NCBI RefSeq assembly: GCF_000005505.3
Contig: NC_016135.3
Span: 25,390,613 to 25,454,612 of the forward strand
Direction: 5' to 3'
From: Brachypodium distachyon
Taxonomy: Eukaryota > Streptophyta > Magnoliopsida > Poales > Poaceae
DNA: 64,000 bases
This document shows, one piece after another, positions 2,605 through 10,906 of this stretch. The notes beneath the pieces are model-generated. The model made no database searches, was not told the DNA's origin, and saw nothing but the letters and a program-made list of their open reading frames with translations. A program made the translations under genes and the position numbers. Numbering within the stretch: the first letter of the stretch is position 1; the number at the start of each line of letters is the position of its first letter.

Positions 2605-4563
2605 GTGCTCCTCCTTGCCACGGTTCCAATGCGGCGATTCTGCAGCATCCCGCGCGGCAGGCGAGCGGCGCCGGCCGCGAGCCCCTACGGCCACCAGCCT
2701 CTCCCGCCGCCGGAGTGGATCGAGCCGTACACGGACCTGGCGGACCCGAGCCCGTACACCTCCGCCTCGGCCGCGCCGCCTACCCCATCGCCATGGCTCC
2801 CGCGGGTCGTCTCCCTCGTCCTCCGCGCGCCTCCGGCCACGCTCGCTGCCGACCTCCGGGCCTTCTGCAAGACCTTCCTCCTCCGCCTCTCCCCGGCCTT
2901 CGTCGCCGCCGCGCTCCGCTCCCCGCAGCTGCTCACGCACCCGCTCCCGTCGCTCCACTTCTTCCGCTCCCTCCCCAACGGCGCCGATCTCGCCGCCCAC
3001 CCGCAGGACCTCCTCAACTGCTACGTCTCCCTCCTGCACTCCTTCGCGCACTCCAGAGAGGCTACCCCCGACGCCGCCGACCACGCGCGGCAGCTCGTCG
3101 CCGAGTTGCGCGCCCGCGGGGACGCCGTGTTGATGCACCTCACGCCGCCGTCGTCCGCGTCGCTGATCCGCAGCCTCGCGGCTCTCGGCCTCGCCGACGA
3201 GCTTCTGTGGGCGTGGAGCGCCATGCGGCTCGCTGGCGTCGAACCCTCCAGGGTGACCTACAACTGCCTTCTCGATGGCCTTGCTAACGCAGGCCTCCTT
3301 GACACTGCCATCAACGTGTTCGACGCAATGTCCACAGAGGATCGAGTTCGTCCCGACGTGGTCTCCTACAACATTCTCATCAAGGGGTACTGCCGCGCAG
3401 GGAGGGCGCAGGATGCTATGGCACGGCTCGCTCACATGCGGGAACAGGCCGAGCTCTCGCCGGATAAGGTGACATACCTTACACTAATGCAGTTGCATTA
3501 CAGCGAAGGCACCTTTTCTCAGTGCATAAGATTGTTCCAAGAAATGGAAGAGATGGGAATGGGGAAGGACATTCCGCAACATGCTTATGTGCTGGTGATT
3601 GGTGCTCTTTGCAAGGAAGGGAAGCCATTTGAGGGACTGGCTGTGTTCGAGAGAATGCTGAAGAGTGGTTACCCGGCCAAAGCAGCCATGTATACCGCGC
3701 TCATTGACACAATGGGTAAATTTGGTAGGGAGAATGAGGCAATGCTACTCTTTGAGAGGATGAAGGCAAGCGGTCTTGAGCTCGATGCAATCACATACGG
3801 AGTCATCGTGAACTGCTTGTGCCGGTTTGGGAAGCTGGACGAGGCCATTTTATGTTTCAGGAATTGTGTAGAGAAGGGTATTGCGGTGAATGCTATCTTT
3901 TATACAAGTCTGATTGATGGCTTTGGGAAAGCTGGAATGGTCGACCAAGCACAGGAGCTCTTTGAGGAGATGAAAGTTAAAGGTTTTGTGCCCGACTCAT
4001 ATTGCTACAATGTGCTGATCGATGGATTAGCTAAAGCAGGAAGGTTGGATGATGCGTGTGCCTTGTACAAGAGAATGGAAGATGATGGCTGTGACCAGAC
4101 TGTCTACACATATACCATAATCATTGATGGTTTGTTCAAGAAACATAAGAATGAGGAGGCAATCAAGTTCTGGAACACAATGATCGATAAGGGGATCACT
4201 CCCACAGCTGCAGCTTTCAGGACCTTTGCCAATGGCCTCTGTCTTTCTGGCAAATTCAGCAGGGCATGCAGAATATTGGATGAATTGGCTCCGATGGGGG
4301 TGATCCCTGAGACGGCACATGAGGATATGATCAATGTTCTGTGCAAGGCTGGCAGATTCAAGCAGGCATGCAAATTGGCAGATGGCATTGTACAGAAGGG
4401 CCGTGAGATACCTGGAAGGGTTCGAACGATGATGATCACTGCACTCAGGAAAGCAGGGAACACTGATCTAGCTGTCAAACTGGTGCACAGTAAGATAGGC
4501 ATTGGATATGTAAGATCTGGCAGTATCAAAAGAAGAGTGAAATTTCAGACCCTGTTTGTATAA
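2605..4563 (+). CDS. P-class pentatricopeptide repeat protein, organellar
   Basis: An intronless 652-residue frame, typical of plant PPR genes. The N-terminal 40 residues are rich in Arg, Ala and Pro with few acids (MRRFCSIPRGRRAAP), suggesting import into mitochondria or plastids. From about residue 185 to 640 there are roughly 11-12 tandem 35-residue repeats with the classic VTYNCLLDGLANAG, VVSYNILIKGYCRAG, TYTIIIDGLFK and YCYNVLIDGLAKAG cores. No E, E+ or DYW tail is visible, so it is P-class. Such proteins bind specific organellar RNAs to stabilise, splice or aid translation of them; the target here cannot be read by eye. Translation could instead begin at Met-9 (2629). The 5' half is extremely GC-rich and the 3' half much less so, a gradient usual in grass genes. 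Confidence 0.93.
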   Translation: MLLLATVPMRRFCSIPRGRRAAPAASPYGHQPLPPPEWIEPYTDLADPSPYTSASAAPPTPSPWLPRVVSLVLRAPPATLAADLRAFCKTFLLRLSPAFVAAALRSPQLLTHPLPSLHFFRSLPNGADLAAHPQDLLNCYVSLLHSFAHSREATPDAADHARQLVAELRARGDAVLMHLTPPSSASLIRSLAALGLADELLWAWSAMRLAGVEPSRVTYNCLLDGLANAGLLDTAINVFDAMSTEDRVRPDVVSYNILIKGYCRAGRAQDAMARLAHMREQAELSPDKVTYLTLMQLHYSEGTFSQCIRLFQEMEEMGMGKDIPQHAYVLVIGALCKEGKPFEGLAVFERMLKSGYPAKAAMYTALIDTMGKFGRENEAMLLFERMKASGLELDAITYGVIVNCLCRFGKLDEAILCFRNCVEKGIAVNAIFYTSLIDGFGKAGMVDQAQELFEEMKVKGFVPDSYCYNVLIDGLAKAGRLDDACALYKRMEDDGCDQTVYTYTIIIDGLFKKHKNEEAIKFWNTMIDKGITPTAAAFRTFANGLCLSGKFSRACRILDELAPMGVIPETAHEDMINVLCKAGRFKQACKLADGIVQKGREIPGRVRTMMITALRKAGNTDLAVKLVHSKIGIGYVRSGSIKRRVKFQTLFV

Positions 4564-5708
4564 GTTGACGATTTCAAAAAGGTGAGAGAGAAGACACGCA
4601 GAGCTGCTAAAGATTTATCAAAACTGAGAAGGCATGGCATAAGCTACACTGAACTGTTGCATCGCATTCTGGACAATGTTTTGAATCTGAAGAGCCTGCT
4701 CTCCTGCGGGAATTTTGTTGCAATGTTCAGGAGCCAAGAATTATTCTGGCAATTTTCAGGAGCCAAGAAGCTTAAAGCAGCCAGTTTCAAACAATTAATG
4801 CTATGTTTGCATCGTTGTATTTTTTGTGGAAGGGCTAAAGGGCTAAAATTACTTGGGGTACATGAATCTCCCAGACTACTGAGAAATACCTATGTGATCG
4901 ACTGCATTCTCTTCAAAGAAACGATAGGCTGGACAAAGAATTGCTAAGATGGCCTAATCAGTGGCGTACCCACCCGCGGGAAATTTGGTCTGCTGATCGT
5001 TTTGGGCAGACCATCAGATCGACATTGTAGCGTCAAAATATGTGACATGTAGTGTTTGGTTGATGGCACGAGGATGTGAATATGATTCCACCATTGTACT
5101 ATAACTAAGTCATTCGGTCTCAATTTGTCTCATGCTCGAACCAAACACTAAATTATCACCGCAACTGTGCTGCTTGATCAGTTGCTTTGGATCATACAAT
5201 GAAGAGTTTTGCAGCTCAATTACATGGACCATGGTAATCTTACCAATATTAACGAAGTTTTGGAACTTACGCACACGATGGATTTAATACTGTTACCGCA
5301 CATCCTGCTGTTCTCTTTACTGCGAAAACACGCCTATGCAAACCATAAATCTATGAACTTAAATCTTGATACAAAATGGGACATCCAATCCAAACAGATT
5401 TTATTGCGTACTGCCTCACCAGGCCAGGAAAGGATTTTGCCAAAATACTGCTCACAGAGCTTTTAAAGACTCTGGCCATGTATTACAAGCACAACAACAA
5501 TTCGAAGTAATAAAAATATGTGCATGTCATTCCCAGGCAAGAATTACAGGGTATCAGGCCAAGGTTGTTGGTTATCATCGACCAACAAGAAAGCCTACAT
5601 TGGCATATAATCACATTAAAGATCTCTAAGGCCCTGCTACAATCGTTTCTCCAAAAAGGAGAGCACAATTTACACAAGCCCGGTTGGTTCATTTGCATCC
5701 AATGGCTC
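4564..5708. other. PPR 3'UTR and distal 3' exon of NAA10 transcript
   Basis: The first few hundred bases are probably 3'UTR of the PPR gene. From about 5708 downward on the minus strand lies the predicted terminal, non-coding exon of NAA10, starting after an acceptor that reads CACTCATTGCAG. Open frames here have no protein resemblance. Confidence 0.4.
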
Positions 5709-6015
5709 CTGCAATGAGTGAAAACCATACTTAGAAAACAAATCTGACAAAGTAATTGGGAAGAAAATTGCACATATGGATCAAAATCAGACATCAAATT
5801 GACCAGTTGATGTCTCCCTAAACCTATTACACGAAACAGTGGATGGACACTAAACTAAGTGCATAGGGCTAACACAGAGAAGCCACACAAAAATCATCAA
5901 GCATCCCAGTACATCATGTATTTAAACAAAGTATCAAGGAAGCCAAAATCGAAAATATTTGGAGAAAAAGGGAGATGAGACACATGTACAAGCATTGATG
6001 TCAAATTGTCTACAA

Positions 6016-6130
6016 TGCCTCAGATTTGTCGATTGATGTCAAATTGTATCCATTTTGTCAAGAGGTTCTCCCTGAAACAGGGGCTTGACTCCATGGAACA
6101 TCCATTTTGCAGACAGGATCATCATCAGCA
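6016..6130 (-). ncRNA. Box C/D snoRNA-like element, copy 1 (most 3' of four)
   Basis: On the minus strand the copy begins around GCTGATGATGATCC, with C box ATGATGA at 6125-6119. It ends with D box CTGA at 6023-6020 followed by GGC. The body contains the same internal hairpin as the other copies, CCCTG-TTT-CAGGG. This copy diverges most from the rest and its terminal stem is weaker. It could be a decaying copy. Confidence 0.55.
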
Positions 6131-6254
6131 AGAGTCCATATAACATCCATATTGCAGAGAGAAGCATCAGACATTTATTTTAGTACTGAATATAAATATA
6201 TCTATTACTATGATGCATCAGATCTTTTTACTTACAGAAGTGAAATTTCTACAG

Positions 6255-6369
6255 TGCCTCAGATTTGTCGATTGATGTCATATTATAACTGCTTCTTCAA
6301 GAGGTTCTCCCTGAAACAGGGGCTTGAGTCCACAGAACATCCATTTTGCAGACAGAAGCATCACAGGCG
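6255..6369 (-). ncRNA. Box C/D snoRNA-like element, copy 2
   Basis: Minus strand: 5' GCCTGTGATGC (C box GTGATGC, one mismatch from RUGAUGA), an internal hairpin CCCTG-TTT-CAGGG enclosed by CAAG/CTTG, then D box CTGA and GGC. The outer GCC and GGC can pair as the terminal stem that brings boxes C and D together. The 15 bases before box D (ACATCAATCGACAAA) are conserved between copies, as expected for a guide, but I could not place a target. Confidence 0.65.
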
Positions 6370-6442
6370 ACTATCTAAAGTAAATTATATGCTACTGCTA
6401 TGCATCATATTTTGGTACATAGAAAGATGAATTTTTCAAAGG

Positions 6443-6558
6443 TGCCTCAGATTTGTCGATTGATGTCATATTGCATCTGCTTCCTCAAGAGGTTCTCCCT
6501 GAAACAGGGGCTTGAGTCCACAGCACATCCATTTTGCAGACAGAAGCATCACAGGCAA
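6443..6558 (-). ncRNA. Box C/D snoRNA-like element, copy 3
   Basis: Nearly identical to copy 2. Minus strand: GCC, C box GTGATGC at 6552-6546, the same internal hairpin, D box CTGA at 6450-6447, then GGC. Spacing to copies 2 and 4 is about 190 bases, a normal spacing for processed polycistronic snoRNAs. Sequence between copies is not conserved, whereas the 113-base units are; this argues for selection on the unit. Confidence 0.65.
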
Positions 6559-6637
6559 CTAAGTACCAAAGATAAGATTAATTGATACCATGACGCATCA
6601 TATTTTTCGTTAATTAGATAAATGAAACTTTGTATAA

Positions 6638-6752
6638 TGCCTCAGATTTGTCGGTTGATGGCATATTATATCTGCTTCCTCAAGAGGTTCTCCCTGAAAC
6701 AGGGGCTTGAGTCCACAGAGCATACATTTTGCAGACAAAATCATCATTGGCA
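6638..6752 (-). ncRNA. Box C/D snoRNA-like element, copy 4 (best match)
   Basis: Minus strand: GCCAATGATGAT with a perfect C box ATGATGA at 6747-6741, and a perfect D box CTGA at 6645-6642 followed by GGC. GCC and GGC form the terminal stem. The internal hairpin CCCTG-TTT-CAGGG is present. Length about 113 bases. The family is not one I can name. The region before box D reads CATCAACCGACAAAT, with small differences from copies 1-3 (CATCAATCGACAAAT). Confidence 0.7.
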
Positions 6753-6927
6753 ACTATCTTAATTCTTCAAATGCAACAAATATATAACTGCATATTTTCA
6801 AATATACACCTAAATTTAGAATAACCAACAGTCTAGCCAATGGTCATCCCAATGCAATTCAGACGGGCATGAGCACAGGACAAGCTTAGTAGATGCACAA
6901 AATTAGGATTAAACTGACACAGTCAAC

Positions 6928-7066
6928 AGATGTGGAGAGAGATTTTGGAAGCATAACCAGAAAGAGTTAGCTGCCACGTTAAACTCACCAGGATCACTCT
7001 GTGCCACCATGACTGGGCAACTTTGAGAAAGAACAATCTCAAGAAGCCAAAGGTGAGAGAGGCACG
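6928..7066 (-). ncRNA. H/ACA snoRNA-like element, copy A
   Basis: Minus strand: a 5' hairpin whose base is GTGCC (7065-7061) paired with GGCAC (7005-7001), with an inner TGAGA/TCTCA stem. Next comes AGAGTGA at the hinge position, a second domain, and ACA (6933-6931) exactly three bases before a plausible end TCT. Length 139 is normal for H/ACA. The hinge is not a perfect ANANNA, so the call is tentative. Its second copy is 240 bases upstream on the same strand. Confidence 0.5.
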
Positions 7067-7171
7067 ACCAGAATATTGCAATATAGCTGTCAAGAGAAGC
7101 TCGGAACGAGCACCTTACAATGCATGAATGTTGGACACTGAAACTAAGTACATCACAAGTTTCGTTGTAAC

Positions 7172-7311
7172 AGATGTGACGAGAGATTTTGGAAGCATAA
7201 CAATTAACTGTCAGCACCCACGTTAAACTCGCCAGCGATCACTATGTGCCACCATGACTGGGCAACTTTGAGAAAGAAAAGTCTCAAGAAGCCAAAGGTG
7301 AGAGAGGCACG
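7172..7311 (-). ncRNA. H/ACA snoRNA-like element, copy B
   Basis: A homologue of copy A with the same layout: GTGCC/GGCAC base of the 5' hairpin, ATAGTGA at the hinge, a diverged second hairpin, and ACA followed by TCT. The 5' hairpin is strongly conserved between copies, while the distal part of the 3' domain differs. It is the unit nearest the 5' splice site of the predicted host intron. Confidence 0.5.
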
Positions 7312-7434
7312 CTTACAAACAAAATCCAACAGCAATACTTGGTTTTAATGTTAATGGCACAGCAGTGTTCAATTTGATACTAGAGCTTACTATACATAGA
7401 CAACATAATCGAAAGCAAGCATTGACTTACCCTT

Positions 7435-8019
7435 TCAAGTGTCGGCCTTCTTCTCCGGCGAAGTGGAAGTCGGGGAAGAACCAGCCGCCGCAGGAGGGGC
7501 GTCATGGGAGCAGCAGCCACCGCCGTGATGGTGGTGGTGGTGCTTCTTGGGCTGAGGCTGCCGCAGCATCTTGCGCATATCGTAAGCATCCTCCCCGTCG
7601 GCGTAGTACTTGGCCTCGATGTCGTGGATCTGGTAGCCGAGGGTGGAGGTGTAGAGGTTGAAGGCGGCGCGGTTGGAGCGGCGCACGTGGAGGGAGACGT
7701 ACTCGGCGCCGAAGACCTGGTCCATGGCGGCCTGCGCGGCGGACATGAGCTTGGTGGCGAGGCCGAGCTTGCGGTGGGACCGGAGCACGGCGAGGGAGGT
7801 GATGTGGCCGTGGCAGGGCTCCGAGGGGTCCTCCTCCATCTTGGCCAGCACGTAGCCGACGATACGGCCACCGTAGTCCTCCGCCACGAACAGCAGCTGC
7901 GGCCAGGAGAGCATGTGGTAGAAGTAGTACTTCATCTGGTAGTTCTCCGGCAGGCACATCAGGTTGCACGCCTGCATCGCCAGCAGGTCGTCGATCGTTG
8001 CCTGCCGGATGCACACCAT
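7435..8019 (-). CDS. NAA10: N-alpha-acetyltransferase 10 (NatA catalytic subunit)
   Basis: A single coding exon of 194 residues. It starts [19 protein letters not shown] and is a full GNAT fold: [17 protein letters not shown] (substrate-side helix of Naa10), [28 protein letters not shown] with the acetyl-CoA R/Q-x-x-G-x-A loop (RKLGLA), and the [17 protein letters not shown] segment. In NatA it acetylates protein N-termini with Ser, Ala, Thr, Gly, Val or Cys after Met removal, on ribosomes with the NAA15 anchor. The C-terminal tail is low complexity and carries six consecutive His residues followed by Gly. The stop is followed within four bases by a strong 5' splice site, so the transcript probably has a 3'UTR intron. 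Confidence 0.95.
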
Positions 8020-8320
8020 CTTCGCCGGCCGCCGCTGCTCTCCTCTACCCTTTCTAAGGTAAGGGGGTATAGTCTCTTCTCCGGCGAGATGCGGTGATTG
8101 TGATGCATCCGGCGGCGGCGCGTATTAATAGAGGTCTGGCGAGAGGAATAGAGACATTTGACCTAACCCTAGAATAAAGGGCTGAGATAGGCCCATGGGC
8201 CAAAGCGAGTTAGCACGAGATTGGTCCAGTCCAGTGACAATGAGAACAGGCGATCCCGTGAGATTTGGCGAAAATTATGTGAATATTCGAGCACATAAAA
8301 CAATGTTTTTATGTTCTGGA
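8020..8320. other. NAA10 5' flank
   Basis: Promoter and 5'UTR of NAA10 on the minus strand. The sequence around 8120-8160 is a GC to AT transition. No gene was recognised. Confidence 0.4.
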
Positions 8321-8889
8321 GTACTCCTTCCGTTCGTAAATACTTGTCGCTGTTTTAGTACAACTAGTACGGTGCCCGTGCGTTGCCACGGCCTCTTAAA
8401 CATGTGCACACGAAAATTCATGTTTATACAAAACATAACAATATAATTGGACATTCATCAAAATGATCTCGAGGCTGATGCTAGCAGCCGCGGCCACGGA
8501 CATGGCACCCAGTCCACACCGTCCGTCGGCCGTGGCTGGCGTCAGAGCACGCGGTGGTGCAATGCACGAGGAACGGTGGATACCGTCGATTAGCCCTGGA
8601 CCTCTTTGCTCGTCTCTTGCAAGATAATCTAATCCGGCGCCGACGCGTATTGAGAGCGGTCATCGCAAGGAGGTGCTGCGCGGGCAGTTGAGTCGTCGGC
8701 GATGGCCCGGGAAGGCAGCGCTGTGGAAAAAAAAGGTTCGATGGAGTGTAAGGAGACACGAAAAATCAGAACATGCATGGAAATTGATGCACGGCGGACG
8801 ACGAAGGAAACCTTCCTGTTTTTATTATTAGGAACTTTGCACTAAAACAGCGACAAATATTTAGGAATATTTAGGAACGGAGGGAGTAT
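8321..8889. mobile_element. Stowaway-like MITE with a long insert
   Basis: The left end reads CTCCTTCCGTTCGTAAATAC and leads into TTGTCGCTGTTTTAGTAC. The right end is its inverse, GTACTAAAACAGCGACAA-like, leading to GGAACGGAGGGAG, and TA flanks both ends. About 490 bases between the arms are unlike a MITE. They begin with ACTAGTACGGTGCCCGTGCG, a motif that I associate with the ends of other grass repeats. So this looks like an element that acquired or was hit by another sequence. The class is assigned from the termini only. Confidence 0.6.
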
Positions 8890-9251
8890 TGTCTATTCAA
8901 ATTGTATCTTATTGTATACTCCATTTTTTTAGAGAATGTTGGCCATGAATGAACTCCTGCTTATGTGGTATTTTCTTCAAGAATTTTTATAAGATATTTC
9001 ATCAGGATAGAATACAAGATACATGCAAAAAAATTGTACCAAGAGATACATGAAAACATCATCCATAAAGGAAGATACATGCAACACCATGGCTGTTCAG
9101 AAAGGATCGATGTCTCAAGTTGCTCAGTACAAATTACAAAGTTTCATCAGCACACGTCAAATGCGGTGCATCAAGTTATTCCAATGGAACAGAAGCTCCT
9201 CGCAACATGCTTGGGTAACATAGTTTCTTATCTAATCGACCATTGCAAAGC

Positions 9252-10906
9252 TTATGATGTCCCGTCGGCTGCGAGAAAGGGGTTTGCAATCTCATCAGTT
9301 CCATCAGTTGGTGACACCAGCATGACTGCTGTGCCTCTACAGACCTGCAAGACAGAGTATTGGTAAGATGTATCATGTATGACAGACCACCTCAACAACT
9401 GGAAAGGTAAAATCCCATGAAAAGGATTAAGGAACCACTGGTAATACTACTTCTAGAGAAAGATTTGCACTTTACACCTCATGATAATGTGGTTTCCATT
9501 TAGGAAGACATGCTACTCAGAAGATACCGGGAATACAATTTGATAAGCATGGACCGTGACACAATTCAACATTACCAACCATGGGGGATAACATCCACTA
9601 TTAAGCCCTTCAAAATAATAAAGGACGGATTGACTCTACAAGTTAAAATCGATATTAGAAGAGTACTTACAATGAGACCAAGCTGTCTGGTCTTAGTTGA
9701 TAGTTTCAGTGGGTCATCTTGCTCTACAAAAGAAAATTGCAATACATATTATTACACATGCCTTGCAAAAAAAAAGACACTCTAAAGCAAGAATAAATGA
9801 GGTCAATATTCTCTCTCAATGTGCAAGTGACATTATGATCATGGTGTTTACAGGAAACATAACTCCACATTCATTGTAATCTATTACTTCATGCATTGAT
9901 GCATGAGCTAGTAAGATGCTAGCCTTGAAAATATTTAGTAGGGCACAATATTCTACAATCGGCACTGAGCAAACAAACAAATACAGAGGAAACAAGGATG
10001 CCAAGTGCAGTAATGCAAGGCAAAAAAAGTCCTAATTGTAGTCAGTCTGAACTCTGAATGGCTAAGAAAACTCCATATGGACGATTGAGCACAAATAAAT
10101 GAAGCCCAAATACCTCTTTCAGACTCAACTGCTTCATCCAGCACTAAGTTCAGCAATTGGTCATAGCCCTTTAAAGTTCCTGTGACTGCAAATACACATG
10201 TGCCAGGTCAGTATATCACTGCTATCAAACAACAAAGGACAAAAACGGGTTTTGTAGATCTGGAACAACTCTAGGAGTTTAAATGTCTTTCAACTACCAA
10301 GGAAAGAGACAAGTATCAAGATGTATAGATAAACAGGCCCAACCGAAAAATAGTTGCAAGGAGTAAATGATTTGCAACAAACGGTCAATATAACATGCTA
10401 ATACAAGATGGTAACCATGATTGTTCACGGTAGAAGCATGTATTGCCGGCCACATACCTGAGCTAGATAACCAGCTCACATCCGGACATATGTTTGGCAT
10501 AAACACAAAATCCACAAGCAAAATCAGGGGCATTCAAAGAACAGTTTTATATGGTGCGTCAGTAGAATTCTACTCGAATTAGTAATATACTGTATAGCCA
10601 AATACTACTGCACAGGTGATGGAGCTAAACACAAGCAAATACAGTGAGCACCTAATGGATCTGACGATGTATAGCTTAACCCAGCAAAAGTTCTTTAAAA
10701 AAAGTTTGGGGATGCGAACCAACCTTGCCGGCCGCCGGTGAGCTTCACCTGGACGCCCTTGTCGACGAACTTGGCTAGGTCGAGTGCAGTCTCCTTGCGC
10801 CCCGCCTGAGCAAAAGCAAAACAAACAACACAGACTCGCATCAACGTGGCACCACACGAATGGAGTCAGCAAACTAGTTCGAGCATCACAGGGCCAAGCT
10901 TACCAT
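9252..10906 (-). CDS. LSM7: U6 snRNA-associated Sm-like protein LSm7
   Basis: Five coding exons on the minus strand: 10906-10904, 10805-10724, 10185-10114, 9723-9671 and 9344-9252. They join in frame to 100 residues. Exon 1 contributes only the ATG, then a phase-0 intron. The protein is an Sm fold: Sm1 motif region FVDKGVQVKLTGGRQVTGTL, GYDQLLNLVLDEAVE, then the Sm2 part LGLIVCRGTAVMLVSPTDG and a tail ending NPFLAADGTS. LSm7 belongs to the LSm2-8 ring that binds the U6 snRNA 3' end, and to the LSm1-7 ring in mRNA decay. Introns 2 and 3 are about 540 and 390 bases. The gene is divergent from MRE11. Confidence 0.95.

Follow-up and report, generated by a model that had tools for sequence, protein, structure and literature searches.

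The 64,000-nucleotide (nt) stretch of Brachypodium distachyon DNA analysed here (contig NC_016135.3, positions 25,390,613 to 25,454,612; below, the window) carries, 3' of the coding sequence (CDS) of NAA10 and on the same strand, a tandem array of four 113-nt units with the features of box C/D small nucleolar RNAs (snoRNAs). The units are divergent members of the known box C/D family snoZ278 (RF00201), a family without an established target. They most likely sit, to judge from sequence motifs, in an intron of the NAA10 3' untranslated region (UTR). All features are collected in the table, in positions of the window.

Features of the snoZ278 array and its surroundings in the window
Feature	Position	Strand	Evidence
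snoZ278 copy 4 (transcribed first)	6639..6751	-	RF00201 40.3 bits; C box 6747-6741 and D box 6645-6642, both perfect
snoZ278 copy 3	6444..6556	-	RF00201 36.6 bits; C box GTGATGC, 1 mismatch
snoZ278 copy 2	6256..6368	-	RF00201 42.0 bits; C box GTGATGC, 1 mismatch
snoZ278 copy 1 (most divergent)	6017..6129	-	RF00201 24.5 bits, E 0.082; C and D boxes perfect
5' end of additional copy, in spacer between copies 1 and 2	6138..6174	-	15.7 bits, model R1; repeat D2 copy 6132-6169
Possible decayed copy	5791..5921	-	13.7 bits, E 0.76 over window
H/ACA-like copy a, two hairpins, ACA near end	7169..7311	-	fold z -2.46 (7166-7314)
H/ACA-like copy b	6922..7070	-	fold z -1.34; plus strand -1.59
NAA10 CDS (N-terminal acetyltransferase A catalytic subunit), probable host	7435..8019	-	GNAT domain PF00583, 7.1e-19
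Putative NAA10 3'UTR intron holding all snoRNA elements	5709..7430	-	donor AGG/GTAAGT, acceptor TTTTCACTCATTGCAG/GAGC
AATAAA, candidate poly(A) signal, terminal exon	5400..5405	-	motif scan
Adjacent Site II-type words GGCCCA and TGGGCC, 5' of NAA10 ATG	8190..8201	-	word scan

The family assignment comes from Rfam; in positions 4500-8500, no family besides RF00201 was matched at E<=1. Three of the four units (copies 2, 4 and 3) reached the Rfam cut-off of 36 bits, and copy 1 was assigned to the family on the strength of its 84-88% identity to these three. The initial annotation had called the RNA unnamed, and this description has to be replaced by the family name; its reading of the units as box C/D snoRNAs on the minus strand, long for their class and internally structured, was upheld.

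Regarding the boxes, the arrangement that defines the class, RUGAUGA and CUGA joined by a terminal stem, was found. The D box CTGA is present in all four copies, as had been described. The C box, which had likewise been ascribed to every unit, is perfect in two (copies 1 and 4) and carries one mismatch in the other two. Thus, the perfect boxes noted earlier for the copy at 6638-6752 were recovered, and copy 1 shares them. The GCC/GGC pairing said to close the ends of copies 2-4 was seen in all three; copy 1 has GCT/GGC and therefore a U-G pair. A simple C/D scan of 4563-7435, in which at least four stem pairs were required, listed copies 1, 3 and 4 on the minus strand and missed copy 2 with its three GCC/GGC pairs, and on the plus strand of the same interval nothing passed.

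The four 113-nt units of the initial annotation were confirmed on the minus strand at 6017-6751. Pairwise they are 84-96% identical (112-113 aligned bases), with alignment scores of 77-103 against best shuffle scores of 8-15 (200 shuffles per pair). They are enclosed in a 155-nt repeat with start-to-start distances of 239, 188 and 195. The spacers had been taken as unrelated, which does not hold: they are alike at 71-74% (identical bases in 51/72, 57/78 and 54/73 aligned positions; scores of 20-27, where shuffles reached at most 16-18), and all three contain a common 30-nt motif with 67-73% identity to a reference copy. Additionally, the stretch separating copies 1 and 2 holds the 5' end of a further copy (6174-6138), a match seen in a narrow unfiltered search and absent from the window-wide results. 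As units and spacers are both related, the repeat probably came from duplication of a unit together with its spacer, and since that duplication the units would have been kept under tighter constraint than the spacers. Downstream of the array, 5921-5791 may be a decayed snoZ278 copy.

Folds were obtained for seven sequences: the four window copies, two canonical snoZ278 genes on another contig of the same genome (C1) and the Rfam consensus. All seven showed an inner stem and, at its apex, a CCUG/CAGG hairpin, with the GAACCU stretch bulging out on one side. Thus, the bulged internal arm of canonical snoZ278 is also present in the window copies. For the C1 genes and the consensus this bulge has seven unpaired bases; for the window copies it has five plus one. 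An outer stem was predicted as well, in a register that differed among the folds.

The pairing of this arm was then compared with shuffles in alignment A3. Paired bases filled 94.1% of 119 cells against 83.8% in shuffles (0/500 as high), and the covariation score was 0.417 against 0.190 (0/500), with sliding pairing partners giving scores of at most 0.146. Changes on both sides were found at 7 of 17 pairs (4.5 in shuffles; 14/500), and the further pair types numbered 15 (12.3 in shuffles; 32/500). Arm pairing is therefore maintained via double changes: copies 3 and 4 have the inner stem CUCAAG/CUUGAG, copy 1 has GUCAAG/CUUGAC, and one C1 gene has GCUGCAGG/CCUGUAGC. The core CCTGTTT-(0-2)-CAGG-NN-GAACCT has six matches in the genome, namely the four window copies and the two C1 genes, and none in reverse; within the window, the same CCTGTTT..GAACCT core occurs four times against 0 in 100 shuffles. 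The hairpin CCCTG-TTT-CAGGG described earlier is present in all four copies, but the real structure is larger than that short hairpin and covaries.

Compared with canonical snoZ278 on C1, the window copies are alike in length, C/D boxes, terminal stem and bulged arm, and both sets hold the CCUGUUU..CAGG and GAACCU core. They differ in the apical loop (three bases in the folds of the window copies, four in those of C1), in their guide stretches and in their neighbour, which is a protein gene for the window copies and a snoRNA polycistron for C1. The window copies also score below the C1 pair. Altogether, the four window copies are a divergent subfamily of a family that is already in Rfam.

C/D snoRNAs are usually guides, and the window copies could likewise be ordinary methylation guides, in which the stretch 5' of box D (GACATCAATCGACAAAT) or the one 5' of the arm (TGTCTGCAAAATGGATGTTCTG) pairs with 18S rRNA, a small nuclear RNA or a part of 25S hidden by the imperfect ribosomal DNA (rDNA) copy. 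In agreement with such a role, copies 1-3 agree in all 17 bases preceding box D, and copy 4 differs at two of these. However, the guide stretch varies between the window copies, the C1 copies and the Rfam consensus. In a comparison with 25S, 5.8S and a 3'-terminal segment of 18S (about 256 nt), none of the window or C1 stretches exceeded all of its 30 shuffles, in a test of low power that used an imperfect rDNA copy and recovered one of two U36a control stretches. Neither was a recurring target site found across seven other eukaryotic rRNA contigs. We regard an ordinary guide as a tentative alternative, clearly less probable than a member of snoZ278 without established target. The rDNA copy itself (C6:207700-215500) is imperfect or badly assembled: its 18S is mostly N, and single bases are missing from conserved 18S and 25S words. 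As a separate observation, bacterial assemblies L001-L007 contain eukaryotic rRNA contigs, a contamination.

A different role is known from U13, snR45 and snR4, which the accessible part of PMC5464676 describes as C/D snoRNAs that guide acetylation. They resemble the window units in being C/D snoRNAs without a known methylation target. In contrast to them, snoZ278 is the sole Rfam family matched in 4500-8500 at E<=1, and a bipartite 18S pairing of their type was not demonstrated for the window units in the 3'-terminal 18S segment compared. An acetylation guide of the U13 or snR45 type was thus rejected for 4500-8500 at the level of the Rfam model; the U13 model is presumably part of the Rfam library.

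Regarding the genomic context, the best match of the neighbouring protein gene (95% identity over 89% of the query) is named NAA10 of rice. Between 4563 and 7450, the range scanned for splice sites, a donor-like GT lies at 7430, four bases past the NAA10 stop codon, and an acceptor-like site at 5708 has CTAAG upstream of it, as judged by eye. All snoZ278 copies and a pair of H/ACA-like elements lie between 7430 and 5709, so that the array most likely sits in a 3'UTR intron of NAA10. Plant snoRNA clusters are often transcribed independently, and the 9.5-kb stretch that holds the C1 cluster has no open reading frame longer than 145 amino acids; the array could thus be a transcription unit of its own 3' of NAA10. 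We consider this unlikely, as splice-like sites flank the array on both sides, no exact telo box was found in 4500-9500, and the adjacent Site II-type pair is 5' of the NAA10 ATG. Shortly downstream of that pair lies a near-telo box, TAGGGTTA, one base off by eye, and the single further Site II-type word, TGGGCT at 7548, is in the NAA10 CDS. In rice, telo boxes occurred in the analysed upstream region of 22 of 25 intronic snoRNA clusters, as stated in the available portion of PMC3022908. The excerpt of PMC6172812 at hand places rice clusters in introns and intergenic regions and 11 maize clusters in UTRs; like the window array, these maize snoRNAs lie in untranslated portions of protein genes.

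With the array in an NAA10 intron, the NAA10 pre-mRNA would be transcribed and its 3'UTR intron then spliced out, the snoRNAs would be trimmed to ends defined by the C/D proteins, and the bulged arm would be the functional part of the mature RNA. We infer all of these RNA-level steps; sequence, family, covariation and order were directly observed.

Several points weigh against this picture. In the case of the family, copy 1 stays under the Rfam cut-off and the C box is imperfect in copies 2 and 3. In the case of the arm, the outer stem is paired in only 81% of cells and its register shifts between folds. The single-sequence folding energies of the window copies are at shuffle level (z 0.09, -1.16, -0.24, -0.81); the C1 genes fold unusually stably (z -4.48, -2.30). 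The guide test was weak, so that an ordinary guide target may exist. We infer the intron, because its basis is sequence motifs and precedent, and there are competing sites: a second donor-like site lies at 6988 (two in the scanned range), three more acceptor-like sites accompany that at 5708, including 5868, which falls between it and the array, and another AATAAA begins at 6179, within the array and the putative intron.

Finally, the H/ACA-like pair was assessed for two hairpins, an H box ANANNA in the hinge and an ACA three bases from the end. Neither element had an Rfam match at E<=1. Copies a and b are 90% identical and were the sole two matches in a genome search. Their hairpins fold and CACATCT is in both, with the hinge reading AGAGTG or ATAGTG, by eye not a strict ANANNA. 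The two elements are tandem candidates for H/ACA-like snoRNAs.
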